A stretch of DNA of 64,000 nucleotides from the IMG/VR virus record IMGVR_UViG_3300017969_000006, positions 35,772 through 99,771 of that record, one strand, 5' to 3'. The DNA comes from a virus. Of this stretch, positions 19,011-48,639 are shown one piece after another (within the stretch, counting starts at the first letter, position 1; the number at the start of each line of letters is the position of its first letter). The notes under the pieces are model-generated. The model saw only the letters and a program-made list of their open reading frames with translations. It was not told the DNA's origin and ran no database searches. Position numbers and translations under genes: made by a program.

Positions 19011-19378
19011 TTCTCCCAGCCGTGTTTCGCTAAACCCAACTCGAATGCCAACTGCGGATAATTGCCAATTCGAACATGACATTCTCGACAGACTGCAATG
19101 CAGTTGGACTCATCAAGAATCGAACCGCCCTGACTTCTGCGAACAAGTTCGTGAATGTCTACACTCCCCCTACGAGTGTAAGCAATGACTCCATCGTGCC
19201 TCGCAAAAACCGGACACGCTTGACAGTATCTGTGATCGTCCAACATTTTTGCGACAAGTTTGCGTCGCTCAACATATTCTGCTTCACGTTTCTTGCTACG
19301 CACTTTCAATGGCGAACCACGCTTCAGACCACCAGACCTCTTCAAAGGGGTCCGCTTCATCGGTTTGCCACGCTTCAC
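19007..19378 (-). CDS. HNH endonuclease
   Basis: 123 residues. The basic N-terminus (MKRGKPMKRTPLKRSGGLKR) is followed by a zinc ribbon (CQACPVFARH) and the HNH core: DIHELVRRSQGG, then NCIAVCRECHVRI. The Cys pairs are in place for the beta-beta-alpha metal site. It may nick or process DNA at packaging, or be a homing-type enzyme. Its tight operon position favours a packaging or recombination role. Confidence 0.82.
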   Translation of the reverse strand: MKRGKPMKRTPLKRSGGLKRGSPLKVRSKKREAEYVERRKLVAKMLDDHRYCQACPVFARHDGVIAYTRRGSVDIHELVRRSQGGSILDESNCIAVCRECHVRIGNYPQLAFELGLAKHGWEK

Positions 19379-25408: not shown

Positions 25409-25485
25409 CCCTTTATTTTGCTCGTATTAGTTGCATTACGTCAACTACGCTTCGTTTATTATATTTAGTGTCGAAGGAGCGAAAA

Positions 25486-27168
25486 ATGCCCACTAACGAA
25501 CTTACCGATCTCGAAATCAAAGCAGCGCCAGCCGGCCAGATGACCGTAAATCAGGCAAAAGGCATCGTCGAGGCTTTCGTTGCAGGAATTGGCAACAAAG
25601 ACTCTGTGGGCGATATTTGCGCCTCGGGAGCGTTCAACGCGAGCCTTAAGCGCCGCAAGCCACGCGTGGTGTGGGGACACAACTGGAATGACCCAATCGG
25701 TAAAGTGCTTGAAATCTATGAGGTTCCGGCTACCGACCCCCGCCTTCCGGAAAAGATGAAACGTGCCGGAATCGGTGGACTTTACGCAAAAGTTCAGTTC
25801 AACCTCAACAGTGAAAAAGGACGCGAAGCGTTCGCAAATGTCCAATTTTTCGGTTTAGAGCAAGAATGGTCAATCGGATACAAAACGCTCGACGCCATTT
25901 TCGATCCCGCCAAGCAAGCGAATGTTCTCAAAGAAGTCGAACTTTACGAAGTCAGCCCAGTTCTTCATGGCGCAAACCAGTTGACGGGAACAATTTCCGT
26001 AAAAGCAGCGAAGCAGAAACTGCGCGACCCCAAGGGTGGGCTGACCGCCGCTGGGCGACGTCACTTCAACCAGACCGAAGGATCGAACCTCAAGCCGGGC
26101 GTTAAAGGTCCTGCTGATACGCCGCAAAAAATGCGTCGGAAAGGCTCGTTTCTGACTCGCTTCTTCACAAACCCATCCGGGCCAATGAAAAAGCCGGACG
26201 GCAAGCCGACTCGCCTCGCACTTTCAGCGGCTGCATGGGGCGAACCAGTTCCACAAAACCGCAGTGACGCAGCCAAACTCGCCGCAAAAGGACGTCGACT
26301 CCTTGAACGCTACGAGAATGCGAAGAAAAAAGATGCTGATTGGGACGAGGAGCAAATCGACTATACGGTCTTTGAGAACTTCTTCGCCGAGGATAACCCC
26401 GAGTTCAAAACGCTCGAAACTGACGAGGGATTCTCTATTAACGATATTGAAATCGACGAGGTCGACGAAAAGGGCCACTACATGATGCGTATGGTTCCAC
26501 GCAGAGCCCCAGAAAGCCCCCGCCGTGACATTTTCGCAGAAGGCGAAGCGCAATCCCTCAATGCGGAGAAGCGAAACGCCCTTGAAATGGAAATTGCTTC
26601 ACGAACCCAGATGCCGATCAAACTCATTGAGGCGACGGAAAACTTGGCTGTCTTTGCTAAGAGTAAGCCAGATGGTACTAAGAAGTTTTACCGCCTTCCA
26701 TACCACTGGGACACTGAAACCCAGCAATACATGTTTGGCAAGCCAGAGCGCGTCGAGCCAGCGATGATGTGGCGCCCACGGAAGCCACGCGTCGTCGTCC
26801 CATCACAAATGCCGTCAATGCCGGTTGAAGTAAAGCCTCAAGGTGAAGGGCGAGGCGAGTACAACAACCCTGTAACCGTGAAGTTTGAAGAAGATGAGAA
26901 AAGCGCAATCGATCAAATGATGGAGTGGCTTGATGAATCTGAAGATGTCGAAATGAAGGAAGATGCTGTTCGCTTCATCATCGAATGCGACATGGAAGAT
27001 GCCTTCAACGTGAAATCTGCATTCGACCCAATCTTCGATTACTACAAAGTTGACGTCGAAGTTACTGAAGATGGAATTGAAGTTCTGTCAGAGGCTTCTG
27101 ACGACTTCTTGAATGCCATTGCGGTTGCTTCCAAATCGATCTTCGGGGAGACCGAAAAAAAAGTCTGA
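25486..27168 (+). CDS. Prohead protease (HK97 family) with DUF6321-like domain, zero-frame product
   Basis: 560 residues from ATG 25486, with AAGGAG 8 bases upstream. Residues 1-~165 are the HK97/U35 protease: active-site His65 in VVWGHNWNDP and Ser129 in EWSIGYKTLD, plus SVGDICASGAF at the N-terminus. Residues ~180-275 (DPKGGLTAAGRRHFN, LKPGVKGPADTP, RRKGSFLTRFF) resemble the DUF6321-type basic domain of actinophage proteins. The rest is acidic and helical. The gene ends in a frameshift signal; most ribosomes would stop at TGA 27166-27168, a fraction would continue into ~958 more residues. It matures the capsid shell. Confidence 0.88.
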   Translation: MPTNELTDLEIKAAPAGQMTVNQAKGIVEAFVAGIGNKDSVGDICASGAFNASLKRRKPRVVWGHNWNDPIGKVLEIYEVPATDPRLPEKMKRAGIGGLYAKVQFNLNSEKGREAFANVQFFGLEQEWSIGYKTLDAIFDPAKQANVLKEVELYEVSPVLHGANQLTGTISVKAAKQKLRDPKGGLTAAGRRHFNQTEGSNLKPGVKGPADTPQKMRRKGSFLTRFFTNPSGPMKKPDGKPTRLALSAAAWGEPVPQNRSDAAKLAAKGRRLLERYENAKKKDADWDEEQIDYTVFENFFAEDNPEFKTLETDEGFSINDIEIDEVDEKGHYMMRMVPRRAPESPRRDIFAEGEAQSLNAEKRNALEMEIASRTQMPIKLIEATENLAVFAKSKPDGTKKFYRLPYHWDTETQQYMFGKPERVEPAMMWRPRKPRVVVPSQMPSMPVEVKPQGEGRGEYNNPVTVKFEEDEKSAIDQMMEWLDESEDVEMKEDAVRFIIECDMEDAFNVKSAFDPIFDYYKVDVEVTEDGIEVLSEASDDFLNAIAVASKSIFGETEKKV

Positions 27169-27194
27169 GGGGTCGCGCTCAAAGTTTCGACCCC
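27145..27194 (+). promoter_or_regulatory. Programmed -1 ribosomal frameshift signal
   Basis: In order: a Shine-Dalgarno-like GGGGAG (27145-27150); the slippery heptamer A AAA AAA in register (27156-27162, inside an 8-A run); a 6-base spacer ending in the zero-frame TGA; and a 7-bp stem GGGGTCG/CGACCCC (27169-27175 with 27188-27194) closing a 12-base loop. This resembles the three-part dnaX signal. The -1 frame is open for 958 codons and has no ATG, GTG or TTG for its first 51 codons, although those codons encode a module conserved in the neighbouring proteins. Confidence 0.85.
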
Positions 27195-30038
27195 AACGCT
27201 GTAGATGGTGACGAGGACGGTCTCGTTCAGGAGGGCACCCCCTTCGAGCGTCCAGCCACACCCAATGTCGCTCGCGCCCTTAGGAGCGCCACAAGTTCCG
27301 CCGGATTCGACGGGATGAAACGCGACGATATGGCGAAAATGCGTTCAGAAGAATTCAACGAGGCGGTACAGAAACAGTTCGAAAAAGCAAAGGAACTGAG
27401 GGCCGAACTGTACGAGAAATATCCAAAACTGGATGCGATGCTTGCAGCGCAGCAGATTGCGACCGTCACTTCAGTTCGCACCGGTCAGGACATCCGTGAA
27501 GAAGATGTCATGGAAGAACTTCAAGATCTGCTGAAGATCGATAGCGACGAAATCGACGACCTAGCAGACATCATCGCCAGTACACGATTCAGCCAAGACC
27601 TCCTCGAAGCGGACGAAGCGCAAATGTCAATTTCTCGCGCTCGAGATTTCGTTGAGGAAACAACTGAGGACATGGGGAACATCTCGCTCGCAATCACCGA
27701 CATGGAAGAAGACGTAGAAACCGCTCTTGACCGAATCAAGAAAGAACTTGACGGCATGGAGATTTCTACAGGGCAATTCAAAGATCTTGCTGAATCCGAT
27801 GACCGTGCCGACGCAACCCGCAGGCTACTCACTGATTTGATTGACGACCGAGAAGAACTTGAGCAACAGATTCCTCAAATGGGCTACCTTCTTGAAGATT
27901 ACGACGAGGTCAAGGAGATGCGCGATCAACTCAAAGACCTCGTAGATGAACTCGAAGAACTTTCAAGTGGACCTGTTGAATCTAGGGAGCGGGGACGAGA
28001 TCTGCTTAAGCAAGGTTTCCTGAACGCTGACTCACTAAACACGGGGTACGACGAAGACAAGTTTCGTGAGATGCTTGGAAAGTTCCGCAAGACAAAGACT
28101 TACGAGCGTGCCACCGAAGGGATGACAATCGTCCGCAAGCGCAGTATTCCAAAATCTGAACCCGTTGCTGACAGCGACGCCGCAAGGGACATTCATGGAC
28201 TTGGAAAGCGCAGCATCATCAACATCCCGGAAACGGGCGTTCAGGTCATGCTCAACGATGATCAACGTGGCGATGCTCGTCGCACCATCGCTGGTCTCAG
28301 GTCATCAACACAAAATCCTGATGCTTTCGAGAAGATGGACGAGTGGCTTTCCGGTAAATCGCCCAATATTTCGCGAGATCAGCATGAGGAGATTTTCAAC
28401 GAGTTCGCAGATGCCGCCAACCGGGATTTGGATCTTGGAGACCTCCGACACGTCCGTGACGCGATCAACTTGGCGGCAATGTCTGAAGATGGAAAATGGA
28501 AAACGCCAAAGGCTGAGGGTGGATTCGATGGAAGACCAAAACCCGCTGGTCTGACTAAGCGCCAAAGAGCAGATTTGTTGGAGTGGGGGCAAAACGACGC
28601 AGATGACATGCTGCGTAGACGCTTCGTTGGTCTGAAAGAAGATGATGTGTCCCCCAAGGGGTGGATGATGCTCCGCAACGATTTTGGCGGTGGCATGCGT
28701 TCAGCAACTGGCGGTGGAAGCATCAATGAAACGCGTGACACCGGCAAGCGAGCACAGCGAGGTAGGCCGGTTGGCGCTGGTGATGAGAAGAAATTCAAGG
28801 GCAAACCGTTCTCGGAAGTAAAACCTGACAATTGGGATCAGTTGACTGCCGATGAGAGGTTTGACGAACTTCTTACGAATTTGCACCCTTCTAAGACCGG
28901 TCTTCGAGAAGTTGACTTCAACCGTTTGAGAAAAGAACTGGTGCTGGAGTCTCTCCGCTCAGATCAGGAAAGCGAGCGTGCTCGACGTCGGGCTCAGCGT
29001 CGGGAAGCGCTGGCGAACGTCAGGGTAAGCAAACCAACTGAGCGCCCTGCTGCTCGACCTGCTCCAGTTGCTACAACCGCTGAACAAGCCAAGAAGCAGC
29101 GTCAGCAGGAAGTCACGAAAATCGGCAACCGAGTTGCCCGTATTTCGTCAAATATTGACAAGCAGTTCGAGAGAGACGAAGAACGTGGTTTGGACCCCAA
29201 CGATGAGTCCCATAGAGATATTTGGGCGTCACTTACCGACATTTTGGAAGATAGCGATGAGTTAACCCTGTCTCAAGCAGAATCCATCGCTGCAACCCTT
29301 GACGACTACCTAGAAGAAGCATCCGGAGCAGATCTTACTGCAACCGAATCAAACAGTGTCCAAAATGCTCAGGTTCTTCGCGCAGATATGGGCGATCTGA
29401 TTGACAGATATAGGCTTGACCCGAATATCAGCAAGGGTGACAGTTCAGCGGCGGTCCGAATTGGCGGCGAAGGTGAAGAAGATGTCGCCACCACCGGCCG
29501 CTCCGCCGCACGATTCCTTTCCGAAGGCGGAATGCGATCATTTACCTCATACAAGCCTTCCCCAACCGTCCAAGAATACGCAGAAGCACGCAGAAGCCAA
29601 GGGCTACGCAGTCAACAGGCTGGACGAACCGTAATCAATGAGGAAGCGACATTCTTCAAGGCAATCGAAGATTCTCTGGCAAAAGAAATCAGAGAAGCAC
29701 GTAACGCCAACGATTCACGAACGGTTAAGGGGCTTGAACTACTTCAGCGAATTATGCGTCGTCAAGATTCAGGCAAAGTCTCGGATCGTCGAACCAACGC
29801 CGGCGCACTTTGGGTGACGGCAGACGAAGCCGATGAGATTTTGGACGCGATGATGTTTGCCCTTGACCGACAAATGGAAACAGGCGGATCTAGGGTGGAC
29901 CTGTATGCACAATTTGTCGAAATTATCTCGGCTGCCGCAATGGGGACATTCATCAGCAAGACGACCTCGGAGGTTTCGTCACGAACCCAAGCACGAACGA
30001 ACAGTCAAGGACGACAAGTAAATATCCCGAATCAGTAG
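27162..30038 (+). CDS. Frameshift extension of the prohead protease: giant helical cargo-like protein
   Basis: 958 codons in the -1 frame, giving a ~1517-residue fusion with the protease. The first residues (SLRGRAQSFDPNAVDGDE...) carry the DPNAxDGDxDGxVQEGT module found in three other proteins here; ALRSATSS and three further G(L/M)RS motifs recur later, plus AGLRSSTQ. Most of the rest is acidic coiled coil (ELQDLLKIDSDEIDDLADII and similar), then basic linkers and a helical C-terminus. An internal ATG at 27315 could give a 907-residue protein but would miss the module. No enzymatic domain is recognised; it may act as scaffold or packaged protein. Confidence 0.75.
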   Translation, partial: SLRGRAQSFDPNAVDGDEDGLVQEGTPFERPATPNVARALRSATSSAGFDGMKRDDMAKMRSEEFNEAVQKQFEKAKELRAELYEKYPKLDAMLAAQQIATVTSVRTGQDIREEDVMEELQDLLKIDSDEIDDLADIIASTRFSQDLLEADEAQMSISRARDFVEETTEDMGNISLAITDMEEDVETALDRIKKELDGMEISTGQFKDLAESDDRADATRRLLTDLIDDREELEQQIPQMGYLLEDYDEVKEMRDQLKDLVDELEELSSGPVESRERGRDLLKQGFLNADSLNTGYDEDKFREMLGKFRKTKTYERATEGMTIVRKRSIPKSEPVADSDAARDIHGLGKRSIINIPETGVQVMLNDDQRGDARRTIAGLRSSTQNPDAFEKMDEWLSGKSPNISRDQHEEIFNEFADAANRDLDLGDLRHVRDAINLAAMSEDGKWKTPKAEGGFDGRPKPAGLTKRQRADLLEWGQNDADDMLRRRFVGLKEDDVSPKGWMMLRNDFGGGMRSATGGGSINETRDTGKRAQRGRPVGAGDEKKFKGKPFSEVKPDNWDQLTADERFDELLTNLHPSKTGLREVDFNRLRKELVLESLRSDQESERARRRAQRREALANVRVSKPTERPAARPAPVATTAEQAKKQRQQEVTKIGNRVARISSNIDKQFERDEERGLDPNDESHRDIWASLTDILEDSDELTLSQAESIAATLDDYLEEASGADLTATESNSVQNAQVLRADMGDLIDRYRLDPNISKGDSSAAVRIGGEGEEDVATTGRSAARFLSEGGMRSFTSYKPSPTVQEYAEARRSQGLRSQQAGRTVINEEATFFKAIEDSLAKEIREARNANDSRTVKGLELLQRIMRRQDSGKVSDRRTNAGALWVTADEADEILDAMMFALDRQMETGGSRVDLYAQFVEIISAAAMGTFISKTTSEVSSRTQARTNSQGRQVNIPNQ

Positions 30039-31713: not shown

Positions 31714-34700
31714 ATGGCCAACATCCGGGCCGAACGAGTAATACTTTCTGATCGCGTCAACACCTATCGACGTGATTACGAAACCATTGGTGCTCTCTTT
31801 CGGATAAAGAGTGCGGTACTTGCTTCCCAAGAGAGCCTTGACCCAAACATCTCTGTAAAAGCGTTAAATCAGGATCTTCCCAAAAAAGATAAAAAAGATT
31901 CTGAGAAGCGCACTTCTGGTACGGGAGTTGAAGAACAACTCCCCGAACTTCGCTATGCGCCTAACGGCAAACGTGGCCGTGGCGACGTACTCAAACTGCA
32001 TGTAACCCCACGCGACCTCACAACTGGCAACGAACCAAACTTTGGTTGGATTCCTGCTCCTGAGAAAAAATCCGAAGAGGAAACACGCAAACAAATGCGT
32101 GAACTGTTGGATTGGAAGAAGCGCCGACCCAAAGTTCGCGTCAGGAGTTTTCGTGCTGACCCAAGAACAGGTCAACGAGTAGAGGATTCCGGTGTCGATG
32201 TCGAAGTAAAAGGACTCGGCAGAAAACTGAACCAGATTGTTCCCGGAGGGAATTTGTCCTCACGTGCGGCTGGGGCAGTTGGAGTACTAACTGACGCAAA
32301 CGGGAAATTCCGATGCCCGCCCGGAACCCCGGCAGCCAACCAGTTCACCGATGAATTTGGTACAAACTGTTTCAAACCAGCACTCTCCTCGCGTCGACTC
32401 ATTGGAGCGATGCGTCGGTGGTTCGACAAATATGTTGAACTCGGAGAACAAATCCAACTGCTTGAAAGCATGGGCATATACGGTGTCGGGCCAGACGACC
32501 TAACCCCTCAATACAGGCAAAACATCCGAAACATGGTTCGGGCTGCTGGAAGTGTTGCGCCAAAAGAACGCGTCCAAGAAGTTCAATCCCGAATGGACAC
32601 CGCAATTGATGCCCTCCAAACACGACTTGGAACGACTCGCGACACCACAGACAATGCCGACATGTGGACCGCGCTGGCAACGCTGGCCGCCGATGAATGG
32701 CAAGACCTTGACTTCTCAGGGATTTTTTCCGGACCGGAAGGCTGGGGTTCGTGGAACAAAAACATGCTTGCCGACCCAAAGGGTCGCACTCCTCAAGCAG
32801 CAGCAGATCACACTGCCGACGTTCGTAGCCAATACATCTCAATGTTTGACAACTGGGTGTCGGACGGCCCAATGCGCCAAAGGTACCGAGATGGAGACCC
32901 CGAAGCCAGAGCCCTCATTGACGAAATGGTTACCCGCCATCTGGCAGCAGAGCGTGGCTTCTTAAAGGCGATTCTTCAGGAGTATCAAGAATCCCCGGAA
33001 ATCATGCGTCAAGTAAAGACGCTAGGCCGAACGCAAATCCGTGATGGCGAGGCGTTTGATGACTATTGGCGAGTAGATGGAGAATGCAGCCCGGCAGGTT
33101 TCCACCCCAGAGATGGGTTCGCTCTGAATATTGACTTCAACGCGGCAGCAGTGGCTCTGAAACCAGCAATCCAAAACGGACTAGCAAATTACACTTCTGA
33201 CGGCCGCATCCTCTTATTCGATATCGACCCCAACGATGTGTCTCGCTCATTCACTTCGGAAGCCGAACAGTGGGCCGAAATCGGAAACCTGATGCAGAAC
33301 ACCGTCGATCTTGAACGGTGGCGAAATGTTTACGCTCAAGACCTTTCTACCGCACGCCACGGCTCAATCGAAGCAAAGGGTGTGCATATCGCAAAACATG
33401 AACTTGGTCACGCCCGCCAGTACCAGTTCATTAAAAATGCCGTCTTGGACACCCACGCCAAAACAGGCTCCACCTACTTAGTCAACTCAACTTCAGGTCA
33501 AATTGAACGGCTCGACGTTTCTCCCGATCAGTGGACTAACCAGCAATGGGTTGATGTGGTGACGAGTCAGGTTCAACGTCTTATCCCAGAAAAGTACCTC
33601 GCCGATGGCTTCCCACCGACGTCGCTTGAGACGTTCGAAGGAACAATGCTTCACATCATGGCGGGAAGGTATTACCAAGACGAAGTTCAAAATTTCTTCA
33701 ACTTGAATGATGATGCCAAACGAGGACAGTCGGCATTGATGATGCTCGAAGGCATGACAGAATTGCGCGCGCTTCGAGATATGGGTGTCCTCATGGATCC
33801 AGAACTCGACCGGCTCGTGTCATGGATGGACGACGTTGACCCCAGAACACCGGAACGCCCTGATCCGCAAGGAGTTATCTGGCCGCCGCCGACAAGTTCA
33901 GCAATGCAAGTGTTCCAGCCGGATCCCAATGGAACGTGGGACACAATTAGCCGCACCCCGATTGAAGATCCAAACCCGTTCATTCCTGACCTTGGCGGAA
34001 AACAGGAACATATCGATGCCATCAATTCACGCATCTCAAGTCTCAATCGCAGTCTTCCCGACGCCGAAAGAGACCTTTTTGATCCAAGAAGCGAAGTCGT
34101 CGAAATCCAGAACGGCAATGACGTTGTCGAACAACTGAGAAGTGGCAAAACCGCTCTCGACATTGAAAACCTGACGGTTAAGAAACAGCAAATCATTGAC
34201 CGCGAAGTACTTGCTGAGGACATCGCAGCAACAGGAGAAATCGACGATGTTGGGGATCTCGAGGTCGGCGATGCCATCCGATTCAAAGGATTCAAAACAC
34301 TTGATCGCCGCATGGATGCTGATCAAGAACAAGACCTTTCGGCTGACGAAGGAAAACGGAAAGTCAACTTTGTTCTACCTAAGGGAACAAAAGGCATCGA
34401 AAAACAAAACCCGGCGAACAACGAGCCCGATCAGGTTGAGATTCCCGGCGGAGAATACGAAGTCCGTTCTGTTAACCCAGATGGAACTGTCACGCTAGTT
34501 CCCCGCAGCCAAGATGATGCCGACACCGTTGCTCGTCGCCTCATCGACAGTCTTGATGGAAGTTCCGACATAGACGACGTTCGCGATGCTGTAAGAACAG
34601 TTCAGAAACGGGCGCAGAAGTACGTCCAGAAAAAGGAAAAGATTCGTCGAGCCACGCGATCCAGCGACCCGGCCACCGCACAACGTATGGAGCGGCGCAA

Positions 34701-37700
34701 TGCGGCGATTGTCGAAGAAATTCGGCAACGTGGAGCAAACCCATTCCGCGTAACCGACAGAGATATCGAACGCATCTGGGGCTCTGTAAGACCCGGTGAA
34801 CGTCCACCATTCACCCGTGCCCAAGCAGAAGAGGCTTACGGACGTGCGCTCGAAACTATCGAAGATCTCCGTGGCCGACCAACAACTGGGCGATTTGGTC
34901 GAGCATTGGAAGCAACTGATGAAGTCAGAGAATTCCTAGAGACCGCCCGCCAAAGCGAAATCGGTGCGCGTATTGAACGCGCTGTAATGGAGTACCACAA
35001 CGGTTTCGATTCACGCCCACGATACCGGACCGACATGGACGGCCTTCAGAGCATCATTGACACAGGGGACTCACGTGGCCTCATCCCGCCACGCGGTTCT
35101 CAGTGGGATCCGTTCCTTGATGCTGAAGATGCCATGCAAGGGTTCACTCCAGATGATGGAATTCGTCCACTCTTCGGCAATCTGCTGCACGCTGACGATG
35201 ACAGCGCCATTCAACGCTACTTGGACAACATCAAGGGTTACGCCGCTATTCGAGACTCGGAGTTCTTCGATCGGGTAACTGAGTCGCCACTCGGCAAAGT
35301 CCTAACCGGAGATGTCGAATTGGTTCTTCGTGCCGATGTCGCTCGCCGAACCGGATACGGAATTGGTGATGCACGAGGTCAAATCGCGTTTGGCGTCATG
35401 ATTCACGACGACGATCCAGCGCGTGTCCGTCAAGCACTCCTGACACGTCGATTTGGCGGACCTATTGACGACACCGCAACCACAGGCGCAGCATTGGACT
35501 TCTTGCACGCAGACCTGACCGGTGACTACTCGGGAATCAGAACCCCGATGGACACCCTTTCCCTTGACGCTGGCCTCAGCGTAGACGTCAGAGATCGAAC
35601 TATCCGTGGACGAGTAGACGCAGATGCATTTATCGCAGGCGGATTCAACGGCGAAGAACTAGAAAATGTTCGAATCGGTAGTGCTTCACTGAACTACAAA
35701 CGTCAATTCCTAGCACCAGCAGAAGTCGGCGCGAACAACAGCGAACTCCGCAAGAGGCTCGGTCTTGCCGGTCTCTCTAAAACTGAAGTAGACACCGTGT
35801 TTGAGTTCGCTCAAAGCGGCCGCCTCGACCTCGAATCAGCCGACTTGCTACGAATGAACAAAGCAGCACGGGAACAGGCAGACCGTTTCGCAAGAGTCGG
35901 TATCAGCACAACTTTCACCAACGATAAGGGCATTAACGTCCTTGATGGTGCTTCGGTATCGGTAGAAACACCGGGTATTGGCCGCATCGAAGCATCCAAG
36001 CGTGCCGACGACATCCTGCGTGTACGCCTTGAGGGAGAAATCGCCGAGCGCGCAGAAGACATTGCCAAACAAATTCGATCTGGTGTTGGTCTTCGTTCAG
36101 CAACCTCTTCACCACGCCGAGACGCCCCAATCAATGTCGTTGACCCCTTTAGTGATGACCCATTTGGCGGTGTGGTTGACCGAGCACGGACTGTTGTCAC
36201 CGACCGTATTCGCGACGAAGTAAGCGAAAGAGCAACGGCGCTTGCAACAGAGAAGATTGGCCGTCTGGGAGCCAAACTTTCCCGTCGTCAAGTTCAGAAT
36301 CGCGGCATACAAAGAGTTGGCATGAACGTTCTTCAATCGGACCGAGCAGAAAATTTGCTTCGTCGGGCCGGACTTGAGACAGACGACATTGAGAACATCC
36401 GCTTTGTCGGTGAACTTGCTGCTGCCTTCGGAACTTCCGGACCGGCCGGCGTCGGATTGGTTCTCGCTCGACGCGGAAGCCGTGAAGGAATCGATTTTGG
36501 TGTTCGCAAAGCACGCGAACAAGGTTGGATCACCGACAGCCAAGCCAACGCAATCTTGCGCGCCGCAGACACCGTTGCACCAGAAGGACTTCCTGATGCG
36601 GTGACGAACGCAATTGGTGAACAAGCGCAGCGAGCCATCAACTCAGACGCAGCCGATCGTGCTAGGGAAATCGCAAGCGCCGCCGCTGAACGTGTGCGTG
36701 AACTTGACCTTGGTGATCGTGTTGGGGACATTTTTGATAGGGGTCGCACGGCCGATACTCCTGCTCTTCCGTCCACACCCAACGACCCATTCTCCGCGAA
36801 TGATCCGTTCGCACCTATCTCCGGTGGAGGGCTTCGCTCTCAAACTGGGCGTTCGATTCTCGCACAGTCGAAACCAATTTTTGACATTGAATCTGATGAC
36901 GACATCAACAAATTGGCCGACGAACTGCGAACCCTTACGCAACCAGATTCAAGAAACCCTAATAACCACGTGAGCATCATGGCAGAAGAGTTGCGAGACA
37001 TTATTGGCGATATAGAAACTCCTGATCTTCTCACTGGTGAACCACGCAAATATGCGGAAGACATCACTGACAGCATTCCTTCATATATTGCCAACAGAGT
37101 ACGCGAGCAACTGGGCGATATGCCGCTTTCTGACGAACAGAAGCAACGCGTTGGGGAACTGCTCGCGGCATCCGAGCAGATGCGAGAACTTGACGCCTTC
37201 CGGTTTGACATCATGCAACGGAGGACACCTGATCAAGTCACTGATACGAATGACCCATTTGGTGGTCCACCACCAAGAAGGCCAAGCGCACCACCACCAA
37301 GAAGGCCTACAGCAAACGACCCATTCTCTGACGGTCCAGAAGAAGTTCCAGAAACGCCGCCTCAGTACACCGCTGCGCAAGCACGCGAACGTCTCGATGA
37401 GATCCTTGCAGATTCAACGATTTTTACAACCGAATTCAATCAGCGCCAATCAACTATCACCGAGCGAGAAAATCGTCGATCCGAAGTGGAAACACGCAGG
37501 CAAGAACTTGAGTCAGTAATCAATGAACTGGCTAGATACGAAATGGTTACCGCTGACCGTCTGACAGAAGAAATTGATAGAACTGCACCAGTTGGAAAAG
37601 CCACAACCACACAAGCGGCCAAAATCGATCCCAGACAACACGCCCCACAGCAAGGCATTGTTCGTGACCCCAAAGAGGTCCAGCGAATCGCAGAACAGAC

Positions 37701-38742
37701 TGTCGCTCCCGCTGCCGACCTCACCTTGCCAGAACACCGTGATGAGTTGCGCACGCTCCTGCTCGAGAACGAAAACATCACCAAATGGCTTGGCCTCATT
37801 CAGGAACGAACCCCCATCATCAAGGAGGGGATCGGCAACTGGATGAATGATGTTTACGCCCTTAACCCACCCCCCGCAGACTGGGACGTCAATGAAATAT
37901 GGCGAGAGTCCGGAGGCTTGGTCGGAGCGCGACTTACCGAAGCGCTCATTAGAAGCAGAGGTTATGACGCGCCAGCAATGACTGTAAATGAAGCAGAAAT
38001 GGATCTTCTTCTAGCCACCCGTGGACTTATGCCGATCTCACGTGGTGCTACCAACAACATGCAACGCGCAACCCTTGATTCGTCAGAAGAATTCCTCACC
38101 GGAGGCGGCATTGACGGTGCTGGGCTCTATTTCGCTATCGAAGGAACAAGCCCCACCCGACTGGGTGGCGGACATCACGAGGCCGACGGCTACATCGAAG
38201 GCGTATCAGATGCTTCTGTTATCCGTGGCGCGCTAAACCCCGGCGCGAAAGTAATGCAAATTTCTGCTGCAACACGAATGGCTGAAGAATACCGGTTGGA
38301 AACTCTAGGTGAGGATGTTGGTGCAGGAGGGGAAGCGAACCCTCTGATCGCCCTGAGGCGCAGCCTCGTGAACGACCCATCTCAGGCCGATTTGTTGGAA
38401 GCGTTAGATTCGGCGATTGTTGATTCAACCGACCCAGCAAAGTTTGACGGAGGATCAGTTAACGGACGGACAGTAATTCCGTTGCTCTTGGGCTATGACG
38501 CTACAATTTCCGAGACACGAGATGATAACCGCGTTGTCATTCTGAACCGCTCGGCAGCAATCCTGCAAGACACAACGTATACGGGTCAAGAGTGGGCTGA
38601 GGCAAAACCATGGGATCGCCTCTTGGAACGCGCCAAAGTGCTTGGTGCCGACATGGACATTCCTATCGGCCTATCACCGGAAGAAAGAACACAGTGGGTT
38701 CTTGAGAAGTTGGAAACAGAATTTGGAGCGATCAGTGGATAG
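31714..38742 (+). CDS. Giant multi-domain protein: HELGH peptidase motif and C-terminal ADP-ribosyltransferase-like domain
   Basis: 2342 residues. Residues ~165-240 carry KGLGRKLNQ and the Cys motif CPPGTPAANQFTDEFGTNCF. The zinc motif HELGH is at ~562-566, with a later EGMTELRALRDMG helix as possible third ligand. Residues ~880-940 (FVLPKGTKGIEK then EIPGGEYEVRSV) recall the end of an ART fold. Residues ~1105-1230 (RPLFGNLLHADDD, VELVLRADVARRTGYGIGD) resemble DUF3626-like proteins. Two GLRS motifs lie at ~1460 and ~1706; repeated NDPF motifs and a PPPRRP repeat occupy ~1690-1880. The C-terminus (~2100-2290: MPISRGAT, GAGLYFAIEGT, VIRGALNPGAKVMQI, GYDATISE, VVILNRSAAILQD) looks like a toxin-type ADP-ribosyltransferase. 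Probably injected with DNA; that is inference. Confidence 0.72.
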   Translation: MANIRAERVILSDRVNTYRRDYETIGALFRIKSAVLASQESLDPNISVKALNQDLPKKDKKDSEKRTSGTGVEEQLPELRYAPNGKRGRGDVLKLHVTPRDLTTGNEPNFGWIPAPEKKSEEETRKQMRELLDWKKRRPKVRVRSFRADPRTGQRVEDSGVDVEVKGLGRKLNQIVPGGNLSSRAAGAVGVLTDANGKFRCPPGTPAANQFTDEFGTNCFKPALSSRRLIGAMRRWFDKYVELGEQIQLLESMGIYGVGPDDLTPQYRQNIRNMVRAAGSVAPKERVQEVQSRMDTAIDALQTRLGTTRDTTDNADMWTALATLAADEWQDLDFSGIFSGPEGWGSWNKNMLADPKGRTPQAAADHTADVRSQYISMFDNWVSDGPMRQRYRDGDPEARALIDEMVTRHLAAERGFLKAILQEYQESPEIMRQVKTLGRTQIRDGEAFDDYWRVDGECSPAGFHPRDGFALNIDFNAAAVALKPAIQNGLANYTSDGRILLFDIDPNDVSRSFTSEAEQWAEIGNLMQNTVDLERWRNVYAQDLSTARHGSIEAKGVHIAKHELGHARQYQFIKNAVLDTHAKTGSTYLVNSTSGQIERLDVSPDQWTNQQWVDVVTSQVQRLIPEKYLADGFPPTSLETFEGTMLHIMAGRYYQDEVQNFFNLNDDAKRGQSALMMLEGMTELRALRDMGVLMDPELDRLVSWMDDVDPRTPERPDPQGVIWPPPTSSAMQVFQPDPNGTWDTISRTPIEDPNPFIPDLGGKQEHIDAINSRISSLNRSLPDAERDLFDPRSEVVEIQNGNDVVEQLRSGKTALDIENLTVKKQQIIDREVLAEDIAATGEIDDVGDLEVGDAIRFKGFKTLDRRMDADQEQDLSADEGKRKVNFVLPKGTKGIEKQNPANNEPDQVEIPGGEYEVRSVNPDGTVTLVPRSQDDADTVARRLIDSLDGSSDIDDVRDAVRTVQKRAQKYVQKKEKIRRATRSSDPATAQRMERRNAAIVEEIRQRGANPFRVTDRDIERIWGSVRPGERPPFTRAQAEEAYGRALETIEDLRGRPTTGRFGRALEATDEVREFLETARQSEIGARIERAVMEYHNGFDSRPRYRTDMDGLQSIIDTGDSRGLIPPRGSQWDPFLDAEDAMQGFTPDDGIRPLFGNLLHADDDSAIQRYLDNIKGYAAIRDSEFFDRVTESPLGKVLTGDVELVLRADVARRTGYGIGDARGQIAFGVMIHDDDPARVRQALLTRRFGGPIDDTATTGAALDFLHADLTGDYSGIRTPMDTLSLDAGLSVDVRDRTIRGRVDADAFIAGGFNGEELENVRIGSASLNYKRQFLAPAEVGANNSELRKRLGLAGLSKTEVDTVFEFAQSGRLDLESADLLRMNKAAREQADRFARVGISTTFTNDKGINVLDGASVSVETPGIGRIEASKRADDILRVRLEGEIAERAEDIAKQIRSGVGLRSATSSPRRDAPINVVDPFSDDPFGGVVDRARTVVTDRIRDEVSERATALATEKIGRLGAKLSRRQVQNRGIQRVGMNVLQSDRAENLLRRAGLETDDIENIRFVGELAAAFGTSGPAGVGLVLARRGSREGIDFGVRKAREQGWITDSQANAILRAADTVAPEGLPDAVTNAIGEQAQRAINSDAADRAREIASAAAERVRELDLGDRVGDIFDRGRTADTPALPSTPNDPFSANDPFAPISGGGLRSQTGRSILAQSKPIFDIESDDDINKLADELRTLTQPDSRNPNNHVSIMAEELRDIIGDIETPDLLTGEPRKYAEDITDSIPSYIANRVREQLGDMPLSDEQKQRVGELLAASEQMRELDAFRFDIMQRRTPDQVTDTNDPFGGPPPRRPSAPPPRRPTANDPFSDGPEEVPETPPQYTAAQARERLDEILADSTIFTTEFNQRQSTITERENRRSEVETRRQELESVINELARYEMVTADRLTEEIDRTAPVGKATTTQAAKIDPRQHAPQQGIVRDPKEVQRIAEQTVAPAADLTLPEHRDELRTLLLENENITKWLGLIQERTPIIKEGIGNWMNDVYALNPPPADWDVNEIWRESGGLVGARLTEALIRSRGYDAPAMTVNEAEMDLLLATRGLMPISRGATNNMQRATLDSSEEFLTGGGIDGAGLYFAIEGTSPTRLGGGHHEADGYIEGVSDASVIRGALNPGAKVMQISAATRMAEEYRLETLGEDVGAGGEANPLIALRRSLVNDPSQADLLEALDSAIVDSTDPAKFDGGSVNGRTVIPLLLGYDATISETRDDNRVVILNRSAAILQDTTYTGQEWAEAKPWDRLLERAKVLGADMDIPIGLSPEERTQWVLEKLETEFGAISG

Positions 38743-38959
38743 CAAACGAGTCACCACCGGAGATGACGGCATCCGTTTTCAGCCTAGCCAGACGTACTTG
38801 AAGTACATGGAAACCAGCGCTGTTCGTGAACTGCTTGATAAAGACCCCGACGTTGAACCGTACCTCCAGCAGATCTTTACTGCGCTGCCACAAGTCAGTG
38901 AAGTAATCGATCTTTACAAAAACACCTACATCATGGCGCTGCGTGAGGTTGAAGAATGA
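38735..38959 (+). CDS. Small protein following the giant ART-like gene
   Basis: 74 residues from the GTG at 38735, which overlaps the end of the giant gene by 8 bases; TGGAGCG lies just upstream. Helical (SAVRELLDKDPDVEPYLQQI). Its stop overlaps the next start (ATGA). Small genes after giant toxin-like genes recur here, so an immunity or chaperone role is possible. No homologue is known to me. Confidence 0.55.
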   Translation: MDSKRVTTGDDGIRFQPSQTYLKYMETSAVRELLDKDPDVEPYLQQIFTALPQVSEVIDLYKNTYIMALREVEE

Positions 38960-41445
38960 GAGCAGTACTAATTGGTCAAGTTAGAAAAAACCCGGTCTAC
39001 TACGACCTAGACGGAAAAGAAACTGACGCGTTCGTTGTCGATAAAGAAAACAACGTTGTTCCGGTCAACGTTATCTCCCTCATTGGCAAAGGCCTCATAG
39101 AACCCATCAACGACTCCGACTTCACTGACTTCTTTTGGAATGGTTCCAAAGAGAGCAGCAAAAGATGGGAAAACATTTTTATCCATCGCGTTCAAGATGT
39201 GCCAGACAAACTGTTGCGTGGAGTTCAAATGCTTACCACTCCACCAAAAAAGAAGAATCCGGCGCGATCGAAAGCCGTTGAGGAAAAAGCGCTGAGAGCA
39301 GATGCCTACAAAGCGCTTGTTGAGAGCGAGCAGCACGAGAAAGCACTGGGTCGAAGTCTAAATCGATTCGGTGGAAGGGCTACTGCGGGTGTTCGTGGAT
39401 TCGTTCGTAATGCCCGATGGGACCCTGACGCATTGGATGCTGACGGTGATGGTTGGGTTCAGGAAGGAACACAGTTCGCTCGTCGGATAACCGGTGCTAA
39501 TGTGACGAAACCGAATAAGCCTTCTCCACCCGAAGTCAACGTTGAGCACTATCGCGCGCTTAGAAGTCAACAAAGGCGCAATTATCAGAACTATCTAAGC
39601 GGATCGATCAGTGAACGACTTGCAAAACGTAAAGCGCGATTCTACATCGACCGCATGGAGAAAGTTGACCAAATGATCGAAAGCCGTTTCTCTGACGGCA
39701 AGCGAATCAAGACCGTTGGCGATATGCGTAAAGCGTTTGAACGTGCTCATCCGGGTTTCATTACAGGTGACAGCACTGCCGAATACTTGAATAGCGCAGA
39801 TCCTGATGAGGAACTAAAAGACACGGTTAGGGAACATGGCTACATGTTTCTTTTGGCACTTATGTCGAATCCGGACCTAACGAAAGCAAACTGGAAATTC
39901 ACTAAAGTTGATCCATCCGAAGAGTTTTCTGGCGCCGCTGCTTTCAAAGGGCCGAACAAAATCGACAGACTTGGAAAAGCACGAGATTTGCCTCGAAACC
40001 GAAAAATGCTTATCGAGATCTCCTACAAAGATGAATTTCCCGAAGCGAAATTTAGAGATGCGCAACAAATGGATGCTCGTTTACGTTTGCAACTTGAGAA
40101 CACCAAGATTATTGCGTCCATATTGAGGTCTGATTTGCCAGACGATGAGAAGCAGGAGTTTGTTCGTCGTTTTCATGCTCGCTCAACAGCATTCCACGAA
40201 ATGACACATGGAAGCATGTATTTTAAAGCGTTCACAGATTCATTGGCGTCAGTCGGTTTACAGCCTGACGAAAAAACCGACGCCGATGCGATCTTGGATG
40301 AGGTGTATACAGCAATATCAGATTTAGCACCAGAAAAAGCATCCCTTCTTGCCGATCAATTCTGGGCAGAAACTATTGCCATGCCAGTTGCATTAGTCAA
40401 CCGTGTCTTGAATTATCTTATGCTTCGTTCCAGTATGGATCCAAGAGCGAAATCAACCATGCTTGATGCGATCAATGCGGATCTCACGGATGGTCAACCC
40501 AATGCCCCTGAACCATTGCGTGTCTCAAAGAAACTCTCCGCGTTTCTTAATGACAAGCAAATCCCGAAAAATCTTGCTAAGCCAAACGATCCACAAGATA
40601 CAACCTTCGAAGAAGGTGACGCTTTATCAATCAACTCGACTATGAACATACTTGCGCATCTGGTCAACGACTTGGGTTCTGGAAATGGTTACCAGAATAG
40701 GCTTCCGTGGGCTGGACGGAAGGCAGTTAACTTTGGTAAGAGCGAAGATGACATTGCCCTGAATTGGCCGCTCCTCTTGGAACATGGAATTCCAAATACA
40801 GACCTTGATTCAGAAGATGTAAAAACATTGCTTATGGCAAATATTCGCATTGGAGAAGTAATCTCGGAAGTGCTTCAATCAGGTAATCCAGACAGCATCA
40901 GGAATTTTGCTGCTATTGCGGCAAGTAACCAAACACAAATTGCTCCCGCTGTTTGGTTGGGCCTTACTGGGAATATCGCAAATCAAAGCATGCGTGAAGC
41001 ATACGTTCAATCCAGTATTCGAGGGGGAGTATCGCAACTTTGGGAAAGCGTTAAAGCAAGCGGCACGGACCGTGATCGAGGAAGAATCATTGACACCCTC
41101 GCCTTACTCTTGGGCGTATGGGACGACCTGACCCCACAGCAACGCGATCTTGCTAAGAACTATGCCGCAATGTCGGGTGGCGGTCTTTATGCTTCGTACG
41201 CTGGATATATCACTAACTTCACGCAGTTGGGTCGAGTTTTCGATGGACTCAACTATGAACTGCTCGCCGAACTTGGCCCCTTAGCCCTATTCGGCAATGT
41301 GGCAGAAATGGCGGATGAACAGGCTGGCGGGATTCGCGAACTTGACCCATCTGAACCAACATATGAAGCATTGCAGAAATTGATTTCGTGGCTGTGGCCC
41401 GAACTCCCCTTCGCGTTAAACGGTAAAGAGAAGGCAAAGTCATGA
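38956..41445 (+). CDS. Large protein with HEMTH zinc-peptidase motif and EF-hand-like module
   Basis: 829 residues. The N-terminal ~100 residues are a small alpha/beta domain. KALGRSLNRFGG then WDPDALDADGDGWVQEGT (~155-172) is the shared module, followed by ALRSQQRR (~201-208). The peptidase motif HEMTH is at residues 414-418, within AFHEMTHGSMYFKAF; an EVYTAISDLAPEKASLLADQ helix and FWAETIAMP follow, offering a third zinc ligand. The C-terminal half is helical. It belongs with the neighbouring giant proteins by its shared module. The substrate is unknown. Confidence 0.72.
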   Translation: MRAVLIGQVRKNPVYYDLDGKETDAFVVDKENNVVPVNVISLIGKGLIEPINDSDFTDFFWNGSKESSKRWENIFIHRVQDVPDKLLRGVQMLTTPPKKKNPARSKAVEEKALRADAYKALVESEQHEKALGRSLNRFGGRATAGVRGFVRNARWDPDALDADGDGWVQEGTQFARRITGANVTKPNKPSPPEVNVEHYRALRSQQRRNYQNYLSGSISERLAKRKARFYIDRMEKVDQMIESRFSDGKRIKTVGDMRKAFERAHPGFITGDSTAEYLNSADPDEELKDTVREHGYMFLLALMSNPDLTKANWKFTKVDPSEEFSGAAAFKGPNKIDRLGKARDLPRNRKMLIEISYKDEFPEAKFRDAQQMDARLRLQLENTKIIASILRSDLPDDEKQEFVRRFHARSTAFHEMTHGSMYFKAFTDSLASVGLQPDEKTDADAILDEVYTAISDLAPEKASLLADQFWAETIAMPVALVNRVLNYLMLRSSMDPRAKSTMLDAINADLTDGQPNAPEPLRVSKKLSAFLNDKQIPKNLAKPNDPQDTTFEEGDALSINSTMNILAHLVNDLGSGNGYQNRLPWAGRKAVNFGKSEDDIALNWPLLLEHGIPNTDLDSEDVKTLLMANIRIGEVISEVLQSGNPDSIRNFAAIAASNQTQIAPAVWLGLTGNIANQSMREAYVQSSIRGGVSQLWESVKASGTDRDRGRIIDTLALLLGVWDDLTPQQRDLAKNYAAMSGGGLYASYAGYITNFTQLGRVFDGLNYELLAELGPLALFGNVAEMADEQAGGIRELDPSEPTYEALQKLISWLWPELPFALNGKEKAKS

Positions 41446-42449: not shown

Positions 42450-44404
42450 TGGCCACTTCATACATTTACGAAAAAGAAGTTGATTGTGAAGCGTGTCCAA
42501 GTGTTCGCGTGAAAAGAACGATCATCGCCAAACTCGAACAGAAAGAAAACGTTCGTTACCTCCGGCAAACTCGCGCAAATCGTGAAGAACTCGTGCAATT
42601 TAAAGCACTTTCTAAACGAAACGGGAATATTCGCCAGTATGACGTCAAACGAGTTGGCGCAATCGGGTCAAGTAGCCGTCTGGGGCAAGCAGCCCAAGCA
42701 ATCGGAACCATTGCCACCCCCGGAAATATTTCCCCTTACCGCAGCCCAATCAGGTCAGGAATTGCTCGTGCCCTGACTCCCGGCAAACCCGGTGGTATGC
42801 GTGGTGTACGTCGCCGGGGACGAACCTCTAGGTGTCCAGAAGGATTCCAGTACGGTGGTCGTTTTACTGACAATGAATTCTCGACATGTGGGCAACAGTT
42901 GTTCGATGTTCCATCTCCCCTTGGCGCAACAATTCGCGCAATTCGTGAGCAGCAAAGAGCCGCCGCTCGAGGACCAGCCCAACCGCGAACTGCCGCTACG
43001 CCAATTGCCTCACAAGGAACAGTGAATCGTGACCGTGCCGTTCGTGCGGCACAAATTCCGCGCGTGTCAGCCACCACGAAGAAAACCGATCGCGATAAGA
43101 GCACCGCTGAAGTAATCAAAACGATGGGCAAGCCAGACATCAACGCCACTCGCCTCGTCCGACGTGACGGATATGTTCTCGAGCCAGTCGTGACACCCCG
43201 AGTTCTTCGAACCATCCCAGACAACCGAGACATGGTTGATGCAACATTTATTCTGACTGCCAAGAATCGCGCAGACCTTGGCGACCAAGAACTTGGGCTT
43301 CTTTCAAATACAGGCGTAACCAACGTCACGTATGTTTTTCAAGACGGATCTTACGTTCAGATTCGAAAAGTTCGTTCATTGACCCGTGGTGAGCGACGCA
43401 AGTTGGGTCGCACCGTGAACGCGGCGATGAAAGTTGATAACGAAAGTGACCCTCTTGCACGCCTGAAATACGTTTCAGATGAGACCGGTGATGGCATCGA
43501 TCTCGTTGAGAGCCTACGAGGCGGTCGCACGATTCAAAAAATCCTTTCCGGGAAAGGCAAAGTTTCGAGATCGAAAGATTCAGAAACTGTCGATCCGCTT
43601 GGAGACGCCGCAAAAACAGTTCGAGACGGAGGAGACATCTCCTCTATCCGCCCAACAATCCTGCAAGAAGCGATTGGTAAAACGAATCTCTTCAAAAAGA
43701 CAGGTACTGACAAGTACAAGGCTGCCGATGGCAGGGTTTACACACTGCGCACTTCGGGCAAGTCAGGCGAACACATTACGCAAGCCATGTCATCCGCAGT
43801 CCAAGACCACCTCGGACTCAACGGTGTTGATATCGCATTTGTCGGTAAGGGATCATCGAAGCGCAAGTACTTGTCCATGACCCCGGAATCCGAGATCGTC
43901 GACGGTGCGCTTTCCAAAGAGAAGTCATTCAATGACCTCGATGTGGACGACGTGGCAAAACTTTTCGTATCTGACATGGTTATGGATATAGAAAGTCGCG
44001 CCAGCAACACGGTTGCGATCTTCGACAAGGGGGATGAGTCGTCGCTCATTGCGACATTTGCCCAAAGTGAACTCGTGGATCTTTCGGATGCCAAAATTCG
44101 TGAACGTACCCAGAAAAAGATTCGCGACATGAAAGCATTGCAACCCGACAGCATTTACAGTAAATACTATAAGAGTTTGAAGGCTGAACAGCGCCGACAA
44201 ATGCAAGAAGAGATCGACAAACTCATTGCGAAAGCACGCGAATTTAACTTCACCAAATTCCGCGACAAACTCTACGCAGATGGAGAACTCTCCTCAGCGG
44301 AGAAGACACACTTGAACATTATTGCTAAAATTATTAAGACACGTATTGATGTACTTACCGACAGTAGGGAAGTTTTGATGCGTGTTCTCGGAGGTCAGAA
44401 GTGA
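42449..44404 (+). CDS. Cys-motif protein with possible kinase-like C-terminus
   Basis: 651 residues. The N-terminal part has CEACPSVRVKR and a basic Ala/Arg-rich linker. RCPEGFQYGGRFTDNEFSTC (~127-146) matches the Cys motif of the 2342-residue protein. A second basic linker follows. Residues ~405-560 (LFKKTGTDKYKAADGRVYTL, GEHITQAMSSAVQDHLGL, VDDVAKLFVSDMVMDIESRA) have the spacing of a protein-kinase or HipA-like fold: a glycine-poor N-lobe, then a D-x-x-x-x-x-R helix. That assignment is weak. It overlaps both neighbours by a base or four. Confidence 0.6.
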   Translation: MATSYIYEKEVDCEACPSVRVKRTIIAKLEQKENVRYLRQTRANREELVQFKALSKRNGNIRQYDVKRVGAIGSSSRLGQAAQAIGTIATPGNISPYRSPIRSGIARALTPGKPGGMRGVRRRGRTSRCPEGFQYGGRFTDNEFSTCGQQLFDVPSPLGATIRAIREQQRAAARGPAQPRTAATPIASQGTVNRDRAVRAAQIPRVSATTKKTDRDKSTAEVIKTMGKPDINATRLVRRDGYVLEPVVTPRVLRTIPDNRDMVDATFILTAKNRADLGDQELGLLSNTGVTNVTYVFQDGSYVQIRKVRSLTRGERRKLGRTVNAAMKVDNESDPLARLKYVSDETGDGIDLVESLRGGRTIQKILSGKGKVSRSKDSETVDPLGDAAKTVRDGGDISSIRPTILQEAIGKTNLFKKTGTDKYKAADGRVYTLRTSGKSGEHITQAMSSAVQDHLGLNGVDIAFVGKGSSKRKYLSMTPESEIVDGALSKEKSFNDLDVDDVAKLFVSDMVMDIESRASNTVAIFDKGDESSLIATFAQSELVDLSDAKIRERTQKKIRDMKALQPDSIYSKYYKSLKAEQRRQMQEEIDKLIAKAREFNFTKFRDKLYADGELSSAEKTHLNIIAKIIKTRIDVLTDSREVLMRVLGGQK

Positions 44405-47400
44405 AACAGTACGCTTTAGTAAAGGACATGGTTAACGGCTCGTCTTACTATGGCGTTGTCATCCGTGAAAATGGGCTTACCGAATGCAAAGGTGTTTCAG
44501 GTGTAGGCGAAAAGTGGGCGGAATCTTACAACAACGCCGAAACTAAGTCCCTTGACGATGGTCTTCCCTATGGTGTGAAAATCGGAGAATTCCATGCGTT
44601 GACTCAAAGCGAGGAAATCCTTGTCGAACACATGCTTGACGGCAACACTGTTCGTTTCCCAGACAGAACTCAACTGAAGCAACTGTCTTTCCACAAAACA
44701 GACGCTAATTCAAGCCTTCCTGCCGTTTCAAACACGCCGCTTTCAGCATTTTTGATGGATGACCTGCAAACCGCAGTTGACTACAAGATTCGCGCTTTCC
44801 TCTCCGACTCTGCGAGAGCGTCAGTGATGCTGAAGTCACGTCTTGAAAGATACGGCATCAGCGACACAACTGTCGGCTTCAAGTCTGCAAGCAATAACAG
44901 TTTCCTGAATGAAGACATGTCCAGTGTGGCTCGTGGACATGGCAATCTTCGACGTGCGCTGTTGGATATCAGAGACGCAAAATCAACCTTCCTAGAAAAT
45001 CATCCGGGATATCAGGTTGGAATCGAGGAAAAAGCAATCGGGCGTAGCCTCGGTCGAGGTGCGCGCATTGGCAGACGTGCGGCTCGCGCCTTCAAGCCAT
45101 ACGACCCGAACGCAATCGATGGCGACATGGACGGAATTGTTCAAGAAGGAACACCTTGGGAACGTCCAGCAGTCAGAGTTGGTGGACGTGGCGTTCGCTT
45201 AACCCCAACGCAGCAGCGGGCAAGAAGCGAAATTGCTCCAGATGTCGGGATGCGTAGCCGGACGGGTGATGGAGAAAGCATTCAGGACAGGCTTACAGCG
45301 GCGCGTAACAGTCGACAGCAAAAACTTGCCGATCGCATGCGTGAAATGGGTTTCGACGATGACAATCAAAAAGAAATCAATGACTGGCTGAGAACCTTTA
45401 ACCCGGAAGATTTCGAATATACCGACATTGATGATCTCGAGATTGAAGGTCTGACCTCGCGCCGTGGCTCATCCAGCCCTACCGGCAGCATTTTTGGTCA
45501 GCGCCGTTACTCAAGCGAGGATTGGATCGAAGGCCAACTCGATGAGGGGCCGCTTGCTGGTTCTTTCTTTGAACTTCGAACCGCACGCGATTACACCGAA
45601 AGCAACTTTAATGATCCGGGTGAAACGCTCGGTGGTAATGATGAGTTGACTGTTTACACGCCTGATGGTGTCGTTCTCAGTTTCGAAAACGAAACATGGG
45701 AAGACTCTTTGGACCTTATCAATGTCCGCGCACCGGGCGGTGATGGCCTTCGGTCAAGAAGTCGACGCGGGGATGACGAGGACTACCCTCGTATCGACCC
45801 CGATCTCATCAACAGGTTGCGAAATGAACGATTTGTTCCCGAGACAAGTCGTTCTGGTCGTGCACGTCAAAACCGCATCATTAACACCCCGAACGCTGAT
45901 GGTGGTCCACCACGTCGTGCAGTCCGGGAGCGCTCTGGCCGAGTTGTCCCAGAACCACCGGCACGTGATCGGAGCGGACTGCGCAGCAGGACCGGTGACA
46001 CCGCCAACAGAAATGCCGAATTGACCGGTGTAGGAACAACCGTCCCCAAAGCCATGAAGGCAAACAGGAAGTTCTTCCAAACACTTGCTGCCAACGGATT
46101 CGTTTGGGACGACAAGCCTGACACCAGTGGCAGAGTTAGGATTTTCCTACCCGACCGCATGTCCGACTGGACACTTGACCAGCCCGACAGCGTCCGTAAT
46201 CAGTGGGGCAAATTCAAACCAGCCCGCGAAAATCAGGCAGCCGGCTTCATTCACGTACACCCCGGCAAGGACACGCCACAACGTCCTGAAAACATGGCGA
46301 AACGTTTCCTGCGCACCATTTTTGGCGACACCGCATGGGACGACATGGAAGCAAACGCCAAGAAACCCGGCGATAAGCGCGGCACTGGTCGAATCGGAGT
46401 AATTCCTTCAACTAGCACCGGCGCGACTGGATTGCGTTCCGCAACGTCTCGTGCTCGCACTCGTACTGCCTCAACGGAAAGAGTAGCAACGCCCACCACA
46501 ACCGGACGAAGCCTCCGCTCGGGCCAACTGCGCAAACTTGGAAAGCCCGGTGTCGCAAGAGGTGAAAGCGACGGAAAAATCTGGGAACAATTGGATGACA
46601 ACCAACGCGATTTGTTCAAGCAATTTGCACAGGCGCGTGAAGTTCAGTTGATGCGGAATCTCACTCAGGATGCGAGAATGCGAAAGTTCCGCAACAAGAT
46701 GATAGATGATGGCGATTTCGACGAAATCGACGAGGACGGCAACGTTGTGCGGAATTACAACAAACCGCTTGCTCGAAACATCATCCCATTGGCGCAACGA
46801 GAAATTGACGATCTGCTTCGCGATGAAAAAATCACGGAGGAAACCCACGTAAAGTGGCAGAAAACTTTGGACGACATCAAGACGTTGCGCAACATGAAGG
46901 AAAGCGACAACTACGAAGCGCTGGAGCACCTGCATCCGGCAAGTCGTGCCAAGATCATCAAGGACGCTCGGGGTGAAGATTCAAGCATTCCGGGTGTTCG
47001 TGCACTGAAGGCTGATGGTCCGTCAACGTTCTTCGGTGATCAAGCCCGTACAGCCAGTGGTCGTAGCGCCGGTAAGAATCGGAAACCGAAAAGGAAGCGG
47101 CCTTTCGCTGACCGCATTATCACACCGAATGTTGAACGACTACAGCGTCGGGCGGCTCGTCGTCAACGAGCACAAGCGATTCGTCGGGGAGGCCTTGTTC
47201 GCGGTCAAGAGGCTGACGTTTCTGCAACGCAAAATGCTCGACGCAAACTGGCTCGTCAACTTCGTCGAGCACGACGCAGATTTAAAGGAGAACGCGACGA
47301 AAGAGCGATCCGTAAAATCTTTGACGAAAAGAAGAAAAATCACCCATTGGCCCGTACAAAAGAAGGCGCTCCAGAAGTCAATGACAAGTACGTTGATTAC

Positions 47401-48255: not shown

Positions 48256-48639
48256 ATGAGTGATACAACTAACGAATGGGGCGAAGATCTGCAAGAGGTA
48301 GAGCGTCGACAGCAATTCACCGACCGGTTTAACGAGTTGATGGACTTGACCGACTACCCGCCATTTTCAATCAATCTTGAAAAACACAACGAGTATCGCG
48401 AAGAAGTCATGGCCTACAGCGTGAAAATCTCTGAACAAATTCGTGAAAGCGACGCAATCGAAGATCGACCATTCTCAACACTTATGGCGAAATGGGAAGA
48501 TGACCTTGACGAGGCCAAACTCTACAAACAGCGTTATGGTAGGGATTTTGTTGGCGCCCAGAAAGCGGCCGCAAAGAATGACGGCATCTCCATGCGTGAC
48601 GTAAAGCCCATCGGACCACCATCAGCATATAAAGACTGA
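48256..48639 (+). CDS. Small acidic protein following the ART-like gene
   Basis: 127 residues, acidic, helical (DRFNELMDLTDYPPFSINLE, EEVMAYSVKISEQIRESD), 9 bases after the 1281-residue gene and overlapping the zeta-like gene. It is the third small gene after a giant one; an immunity or chaperone role is conceivable. No known domain. Confidence 0.55.
   Translation: MSDTTNEWGEDLQEVERRQQFTDRFNELMDLTDYPPFSINLEKHNEYREEVMAYSVKISEQIRESDAIEDRPFSTLMAKWEDDLDEAKLYKQRYGRDFVGAQKAAAKNDGISMRDVKPIGPPSAYKD

Follow-up and report, generated by a model that had tools for sequence, protein, structure and literature searches.

A probable programmed −1 frameshift links a phage prohead protease to a large extension, with its polarity reversed in three lineages

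In the window—the whole 64,000-nucleotide stretch of viral DNA analysed here, from an IMG/VR parent record of 99,771 bases—a programmed −1 ribosomal frameshift very probably joins an HK97-type prohead protease to an extension of 958 codons, with free protease also being made from the same gene. On the sequence comparisons presented below, our best reading is that the frameshift determines how much free protease is made relative to protease–cargo fusion. A fusion by −1 shift had been proposed in an initial annotation of this DNA, and it is now strongly supported by relatives in which protease and extension share one reading frame and by a slippery heptamer and hairpin kept at the hinge between the two parts. 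The features of the locus are as follows.

25468–27168, plus strand: frame-0 ORF (566 aa) for the short product, an HK97-type (S78) prohead protease with DUF6321
27145–27150, plus strand: Shine–Dalgarno (SD)-like GGGGAG, a doubtful stimulator
27155–27162, plus strand: run of eight A residues (A8), identical in five contigs, with the in-register slippery heptamer A_AAA_AAA at 27156–27162
27166–27168, plus strand: frame-0 stop codon TGA, 3 nt past the heptamer
27169–27194, plus strand: hairpin GGGGTCG/CGACCCC with a 7-bp stem and a 12-nt loop; relatives have hairpins at the equivalent place, with paired changes
27162–30038, plus strand: extension in the −1 frame (958 codons and a stop codon), beginning SLRGRAQSFDPNAVDGDEDG; residues 344–957 match continuous relatives
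27189–27239, plus strand: DPNAVDGDEDGLVQEGT module at the N-terminal end of the extension, in frame with relatives
29466–30035, plus strand: conserved C-terminal domain of the extension, common to 22 aligned members, L068 included

The frame-0 protein matches Peptidase_S78 (4.1e-12) and DUF6321 (1.6e-28) in Pfam and the head maturation protease family PHROG 80 (9.2e-32), and a portal gene lies immediately upstream (Pfam portal, 3.1e-48); the S78 domain and the adjoining portal gene together place it among the HK97-type (S78) prohead proteases. The frameshift of phage tail assembly chaperones (G/GT) was ruled out as an identity for this locus, the gene being a prohead protease after a portal and not a chaperone pair before a tape measure. 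The major capsid gene (50395–51711) is found 20 kb past the protease gene, and the interval between them is occupied by very large ORFs, including one of 2342 aa (31714–38742) with no Pfam or PHROG match. Elsewhere in the window, a Nol-like carbamoyltransferase gene was identified at 62076–63518 (PHROG 1601, 7e-97). A genome scan for the host matched three MAG contigs only, and no host was found.

Frame 0 ends with GGG GAG ACC GAA AAA AAA GTC TGA, in which A_AAA_AAA follows the X_XXY_YYZ pattern of programmed −1 sites, in register and ahead of the stop codon. A spacer of 6 nt (27163–27168) separates the heptamer from the stem, whose arms lie at 27169–27175 and 27188–27194, and this short distance to a downstream structure that covaries among relatives is likewise typical of such sites; heptamer, spacer, stem and loop are thus present base by base as first annotated. 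The GGGGAG element proposed as a further stimulator does occur at 27145–27150 and ends 5 nt upstream of the heptamer. In dnaX, the corresponding SD-like element stands roughly 10 nt from the heptamer; given the shorter gap here, a stimulatory role is doubtful, and this part of the proposed signal is weak. Moreover, the window stem by itself is unexceptional, with a z-score of −1.39 (17 of 200 shuffles fold equally well) and of −0.71 against synonymous shuffles, so the case stands on the relatives and not on the fold of one site. Across the whole window, −1 overlaps between frames of at least 100 codons that contain an in-register A/T heptamer number two, the hinge being one; the other, on the minus strand, joins frames 19109–18500 and 19414–19009 and has GGGTTTA in register at 19037. 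It has also been reported that, in E. coli, A_AAA_AAA shifts less readily than A_AAA_AAG (PMC5009743).

The −1 frame contains no stop codon between 27102 and 30035, giving 958 codons when counted from 27162, and its first ATG, GTG or TTG comes at 27315, after 51 codons—both points being in agreement with the initial annotation. Residues 344–957 (614 aa) show 44–46% identity to the continuous proteins L007, L008 and L010, with E-values down to 1.9e-156, and from this homology we conclude that the frame encodes a real protein. No domain was found by Pfam in the window's own extension, and structure prediction for its middle part yielded a helical model of low confidence (pTM 0.38). Searches of phage records likewise returned no relative of the extension, the DNA matches being to a short stretch of an acidic neighbouring gene and tblastn giving none. 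Alternatively, the extension could be translated on its own, through reinitiation or an independent start, with two conceivable positions, CTG 27165 and ATG 27315, the latter opening an ORF of 907 codons; among rarer starts, only this CTG and ATC 27135 are candidates. A start at 27315, however, would lose the DPNAxDGD module that is kept in frame with relatives and has no clear SD sequence upstream, the first 51 codons hold no standard start, and most relatives need no second start at all. In the L296 lineage, a GTG/TTG start 5 nt past the stop makes reinitiation possible, but as an account of the window extension we regard a separately made protein as very unlikely.

The relatives supply the strongest argument for the fusion. 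The protease scan matched 342 loci, 80 of which were kept, and in the closest diverged relatives (L006–L011, with 66–71% protein identity) protease and extension form a single ORF of about 1,640–1,750 codons where complete; the ORFs of L012 and L013 are longer. The proteins of the window and of these continuous relatives align uninterrupted across the junction. Since diverged relatives carry one continuous ORF, the fusion appears to be the ancestral state and, most simply, is older than the split arrangement. This same continuity, together with a break that falls in a homopolymer, could suggest an assembly error or a recent mutation splitting one gene. Yet A8 is found in five separately assembled IMG/VR contigs (the window and four others, 99.85–99.99% identical), and a base-call error is unlikely when all five agree despite differing by a few SNPs—even though one population may be the source of all five. 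In addition, two unrelated lineages are arranged likewise, and no further break occurs across the 958 codons, making an artefact or fresh lesion exceedingly improbable. As to run length, it had been anticipated that either 7 or 9 A residues would give one continuous frame; this holds for 9, but not for 7 (6 would do so). Annotated relatives of the protease in Gordonia phages DalanDe and GMA6 and in Brevibacterium phage Cantare are laid out differently and were left out of the hinge comparison.

The hinge was surveyed across 324 loci, representing 68 distinct sites and 30 comparable protease clusters. An in-register slippery heptamer (G_GGA_AAA, A_AAA_AAA or C_CCA_AAA) is present at the hinge in 26 of the 30 clusters, four having none. 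From the amino acids and codon usage of each cluster, 2.7 heptamers would be expected at those 26 places, a figure that serves as a guide and not as a p-value because the position was chosen for having the heptamer. A wider-region shuffle that makes no choice of position, run on the first 25 clusters, gave 21 observed against 7.5 expected (maximum 15 in 2000 shuffles), with the proviso that both tests count clusters as independent while the clusters share ancestry. The continuous genes of the L006–L011 type read TCA AAA AAA GCR CTT AGG at the hinge, with A_AAA_AAA in the identical register, and a −1 shift there would meet TAG two codons later. Other clusters have GGG, CTG or CCG preceding GGA AAA, or CTC CCA AAA, again in register and with a −1 stop soon after. 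Of 23 continuous-ORF clusters, 19 have such an early stop (within 5 codons), where 7.2 are expected and none of 1000 shuffles gave more than 13; the early stop, too, looks to be under selection. Additionally, a GC-rich hairpin starts within about 7 nt of the heptamer at most sites. Its stability exceeds that of synonymous shuffles by over 2 standard deviations in nine clusters, but not in the others, among them the window. Covariation adds to this picture: among the seven pairs of the L057 group, three have changed on both sides and 95% of cells are paired (31–60% with a slid partner), and in the L061 group pairing reaches 98.6% and one pair has changed on both sides. The comparison of related phages that had been suggested as a check on the A-run and stem therefore finds the heptamer kept at the hinge and hairpins mostly present. 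These data also bear on transcriptional slippage, by which RNA polymerase would add one A at A8 and the resulting A9 mRNA would be read normally into the fusion. An added A would give exactly the fusion frame, and A8 is near the run lengths known to slip, 9 A or T in bacteria (PMC5009743). However, the G_GGA_AAA or C_CCA_AAA sites of relatives are not homopolymer runs, and the hairpin and early −1 stops are better suited to ribosomal slipping; polymerase slippage could contribute at A8, cannot account for the G_GGA_AAA relatives, and is improbable as the main explanation.

Which of the two products would need the proposed ribosomal shift varies within the family. In most relatives, the long product is in frame 0 and the short one would arise by −1 shift; the reverse arrangement is found in three lineages, namely the window group, L068/L073 and L296/L299/L308/L311/L321. 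The L068/L073 site reads CGA AAA AAA GAA GAC GCGCCC TCG GGGCGC TAG, with a −1 frame of 557 codons past the slip, and the L296 lineage has GGT TCA AAA AAA TAA, with a −1 frame of over 1,200 codons in L296. (dN/dS for L068 against L073 was uninformative, with 6 substitutions only.) A quick tree of the proteases indicates three polarity changes, all forced by strongly supported branches. The window is nested within a forward group with A7 on this tree, and one added A (A7 to A8) is thus the simplest account of its reversal. When efficiency is near 50%, as in dnaX, one base can swap which product needs the shift (Atkins and others, PMC5009743), and, by analogy, the efficiency of shifting here is likely substantial.

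As had been noted at the outset, the module at the start of the extension (DPNAxDGDxDGxVQEGT) recurs in three neighbouring proteins. The copies lie at 39421, 45103 and 49308, in ORFs located between the protease and capsid genes (38956–41445, 44401–48246 and 48639–50243), the last of which also encodes a Zeta_toxin-type kinase domain (7e-9). A heptamer upstream of the module occurs in 2 of 44 cases in other genes versus 23 of 27 in protease genes; the signal is therefore tied to the protease gene and not to the module, which the large internal proteins of these phages may have in common as a tag for head entry or cleavage. The extension often ends in the common C-terminal domain, predicted by AlphaFold2 to comprise two beta-alpha-alpha units (pLDDT 76.7), and searches with the predicted fold found no known relative of it. 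Its middle part is variable: UvrD/REP helicase domains are found in L062 and L063 (where the hinge heptamer is absent), pentapeptide repeats in L057, HTH and sigma-r4-like repeats in L102, ParB_N/KTSC in L324 and KTSC in L012, and the middle of the window extension contains no recognisable domain.

Taken as a mechanism, ribosomes translating the protease in frame 0 would be halted briefly by the hairpin, and some would slip back one base on A_AAA_AAA and continue for 958 codons to yield the protease–extension fusion. The remaining ribosomes would terminate three bases on and release free protease. In most relatives, the identical slip would instead yield the short protease from a gene whose frame-0 product is the fusion, and a single-base insertion lengthening A7 to A8 would have produced the reversal in the window. 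In HK97-like phages, the protease works only after it has entered the prohead. A tail fused to it would therefore be carried along during assembly, at a ratio set by the slip, leaving free protease for maturation. What the DNA itself shows is a conserved signal, a coding −1 frame and early stops under selection; from these, we infer that slipping occurs, with what efficiency, and that packaging and later cleavage follow. Delivery of cargo into the prohead is suggested by the gene context and the variable cargo domains.

Several known systems offer points of comparison. The likeness to dnaX (tau/gamma) put forward in the initial annotation applies to most relatives, which use the dnaX arrangement of an in-register A-rich heptamer and downstream stem-loop giving short and long products from one gene. 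In the window the roles are reversed—a polarity also seen for dnaX in a few bacteria (PMC5009743). Unlike dnaX, this is a phage head protease gene, the heptamer varies among relatives and the upstream SD element is doubtful. In retroviral Gag-Pol, a −1 shift similarly attaches a second part to a packaged protein and can thereby bring this part into the particle (PMC5009743), whereas here the common N-terminal part is the protease and not a shell protein, and packaging would follow by analogy. Programmed frameshifts also add C-terminal extensions to head proteins in T7/T3 gene 10, Lactobacillus phage A2 and Listeria phages (PMC5009743); in those cases the protein extended is a major capsid or coat protein and the addition is small or Ig-like, whereas here a maturation protease would gain from hundreds to more than a thousand residues. 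Very large proteins are packed in the head of P1, such as DarB of 251 kDa (PMC9024508). The head-internal proteins of P1 (DarB and others) differ in that this cargo is not reported to be fused to a protease. Phage lambda C/Nu3 provides a protease made with and without a C-terminal scaffold part, with Nu3 arising from an internal start and not from a frameshift.

The type of signal is therefore known, and what appears to be new, as far as the literature was searched, is that it occurs in a prohead protease gene, is conserved family-wide and has repeatedly been reversed. No frameshift in a prohead protease was found in that literature, an absence that counts as weak evidence, with subscription journals mostly outside the search; the phage-head cases of programmed frameshifting within it concern shell proteins and not the maturation protease. 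A broader reading, which we hold tentatively and lean somewhat against, is that of a phage counterpart to Gag-Pol: a protease carrying interchangeable cargo, with a hinge shift that would set the dose, a polarity that flips, and the module acting as a head-entry or cleavage tag. The combination of a conserved signal, three reversals and variable cargo constitutes a natural experiment on the evolution of two-product ratios and points to a possible route by which phages may load effector proteins into their heads.
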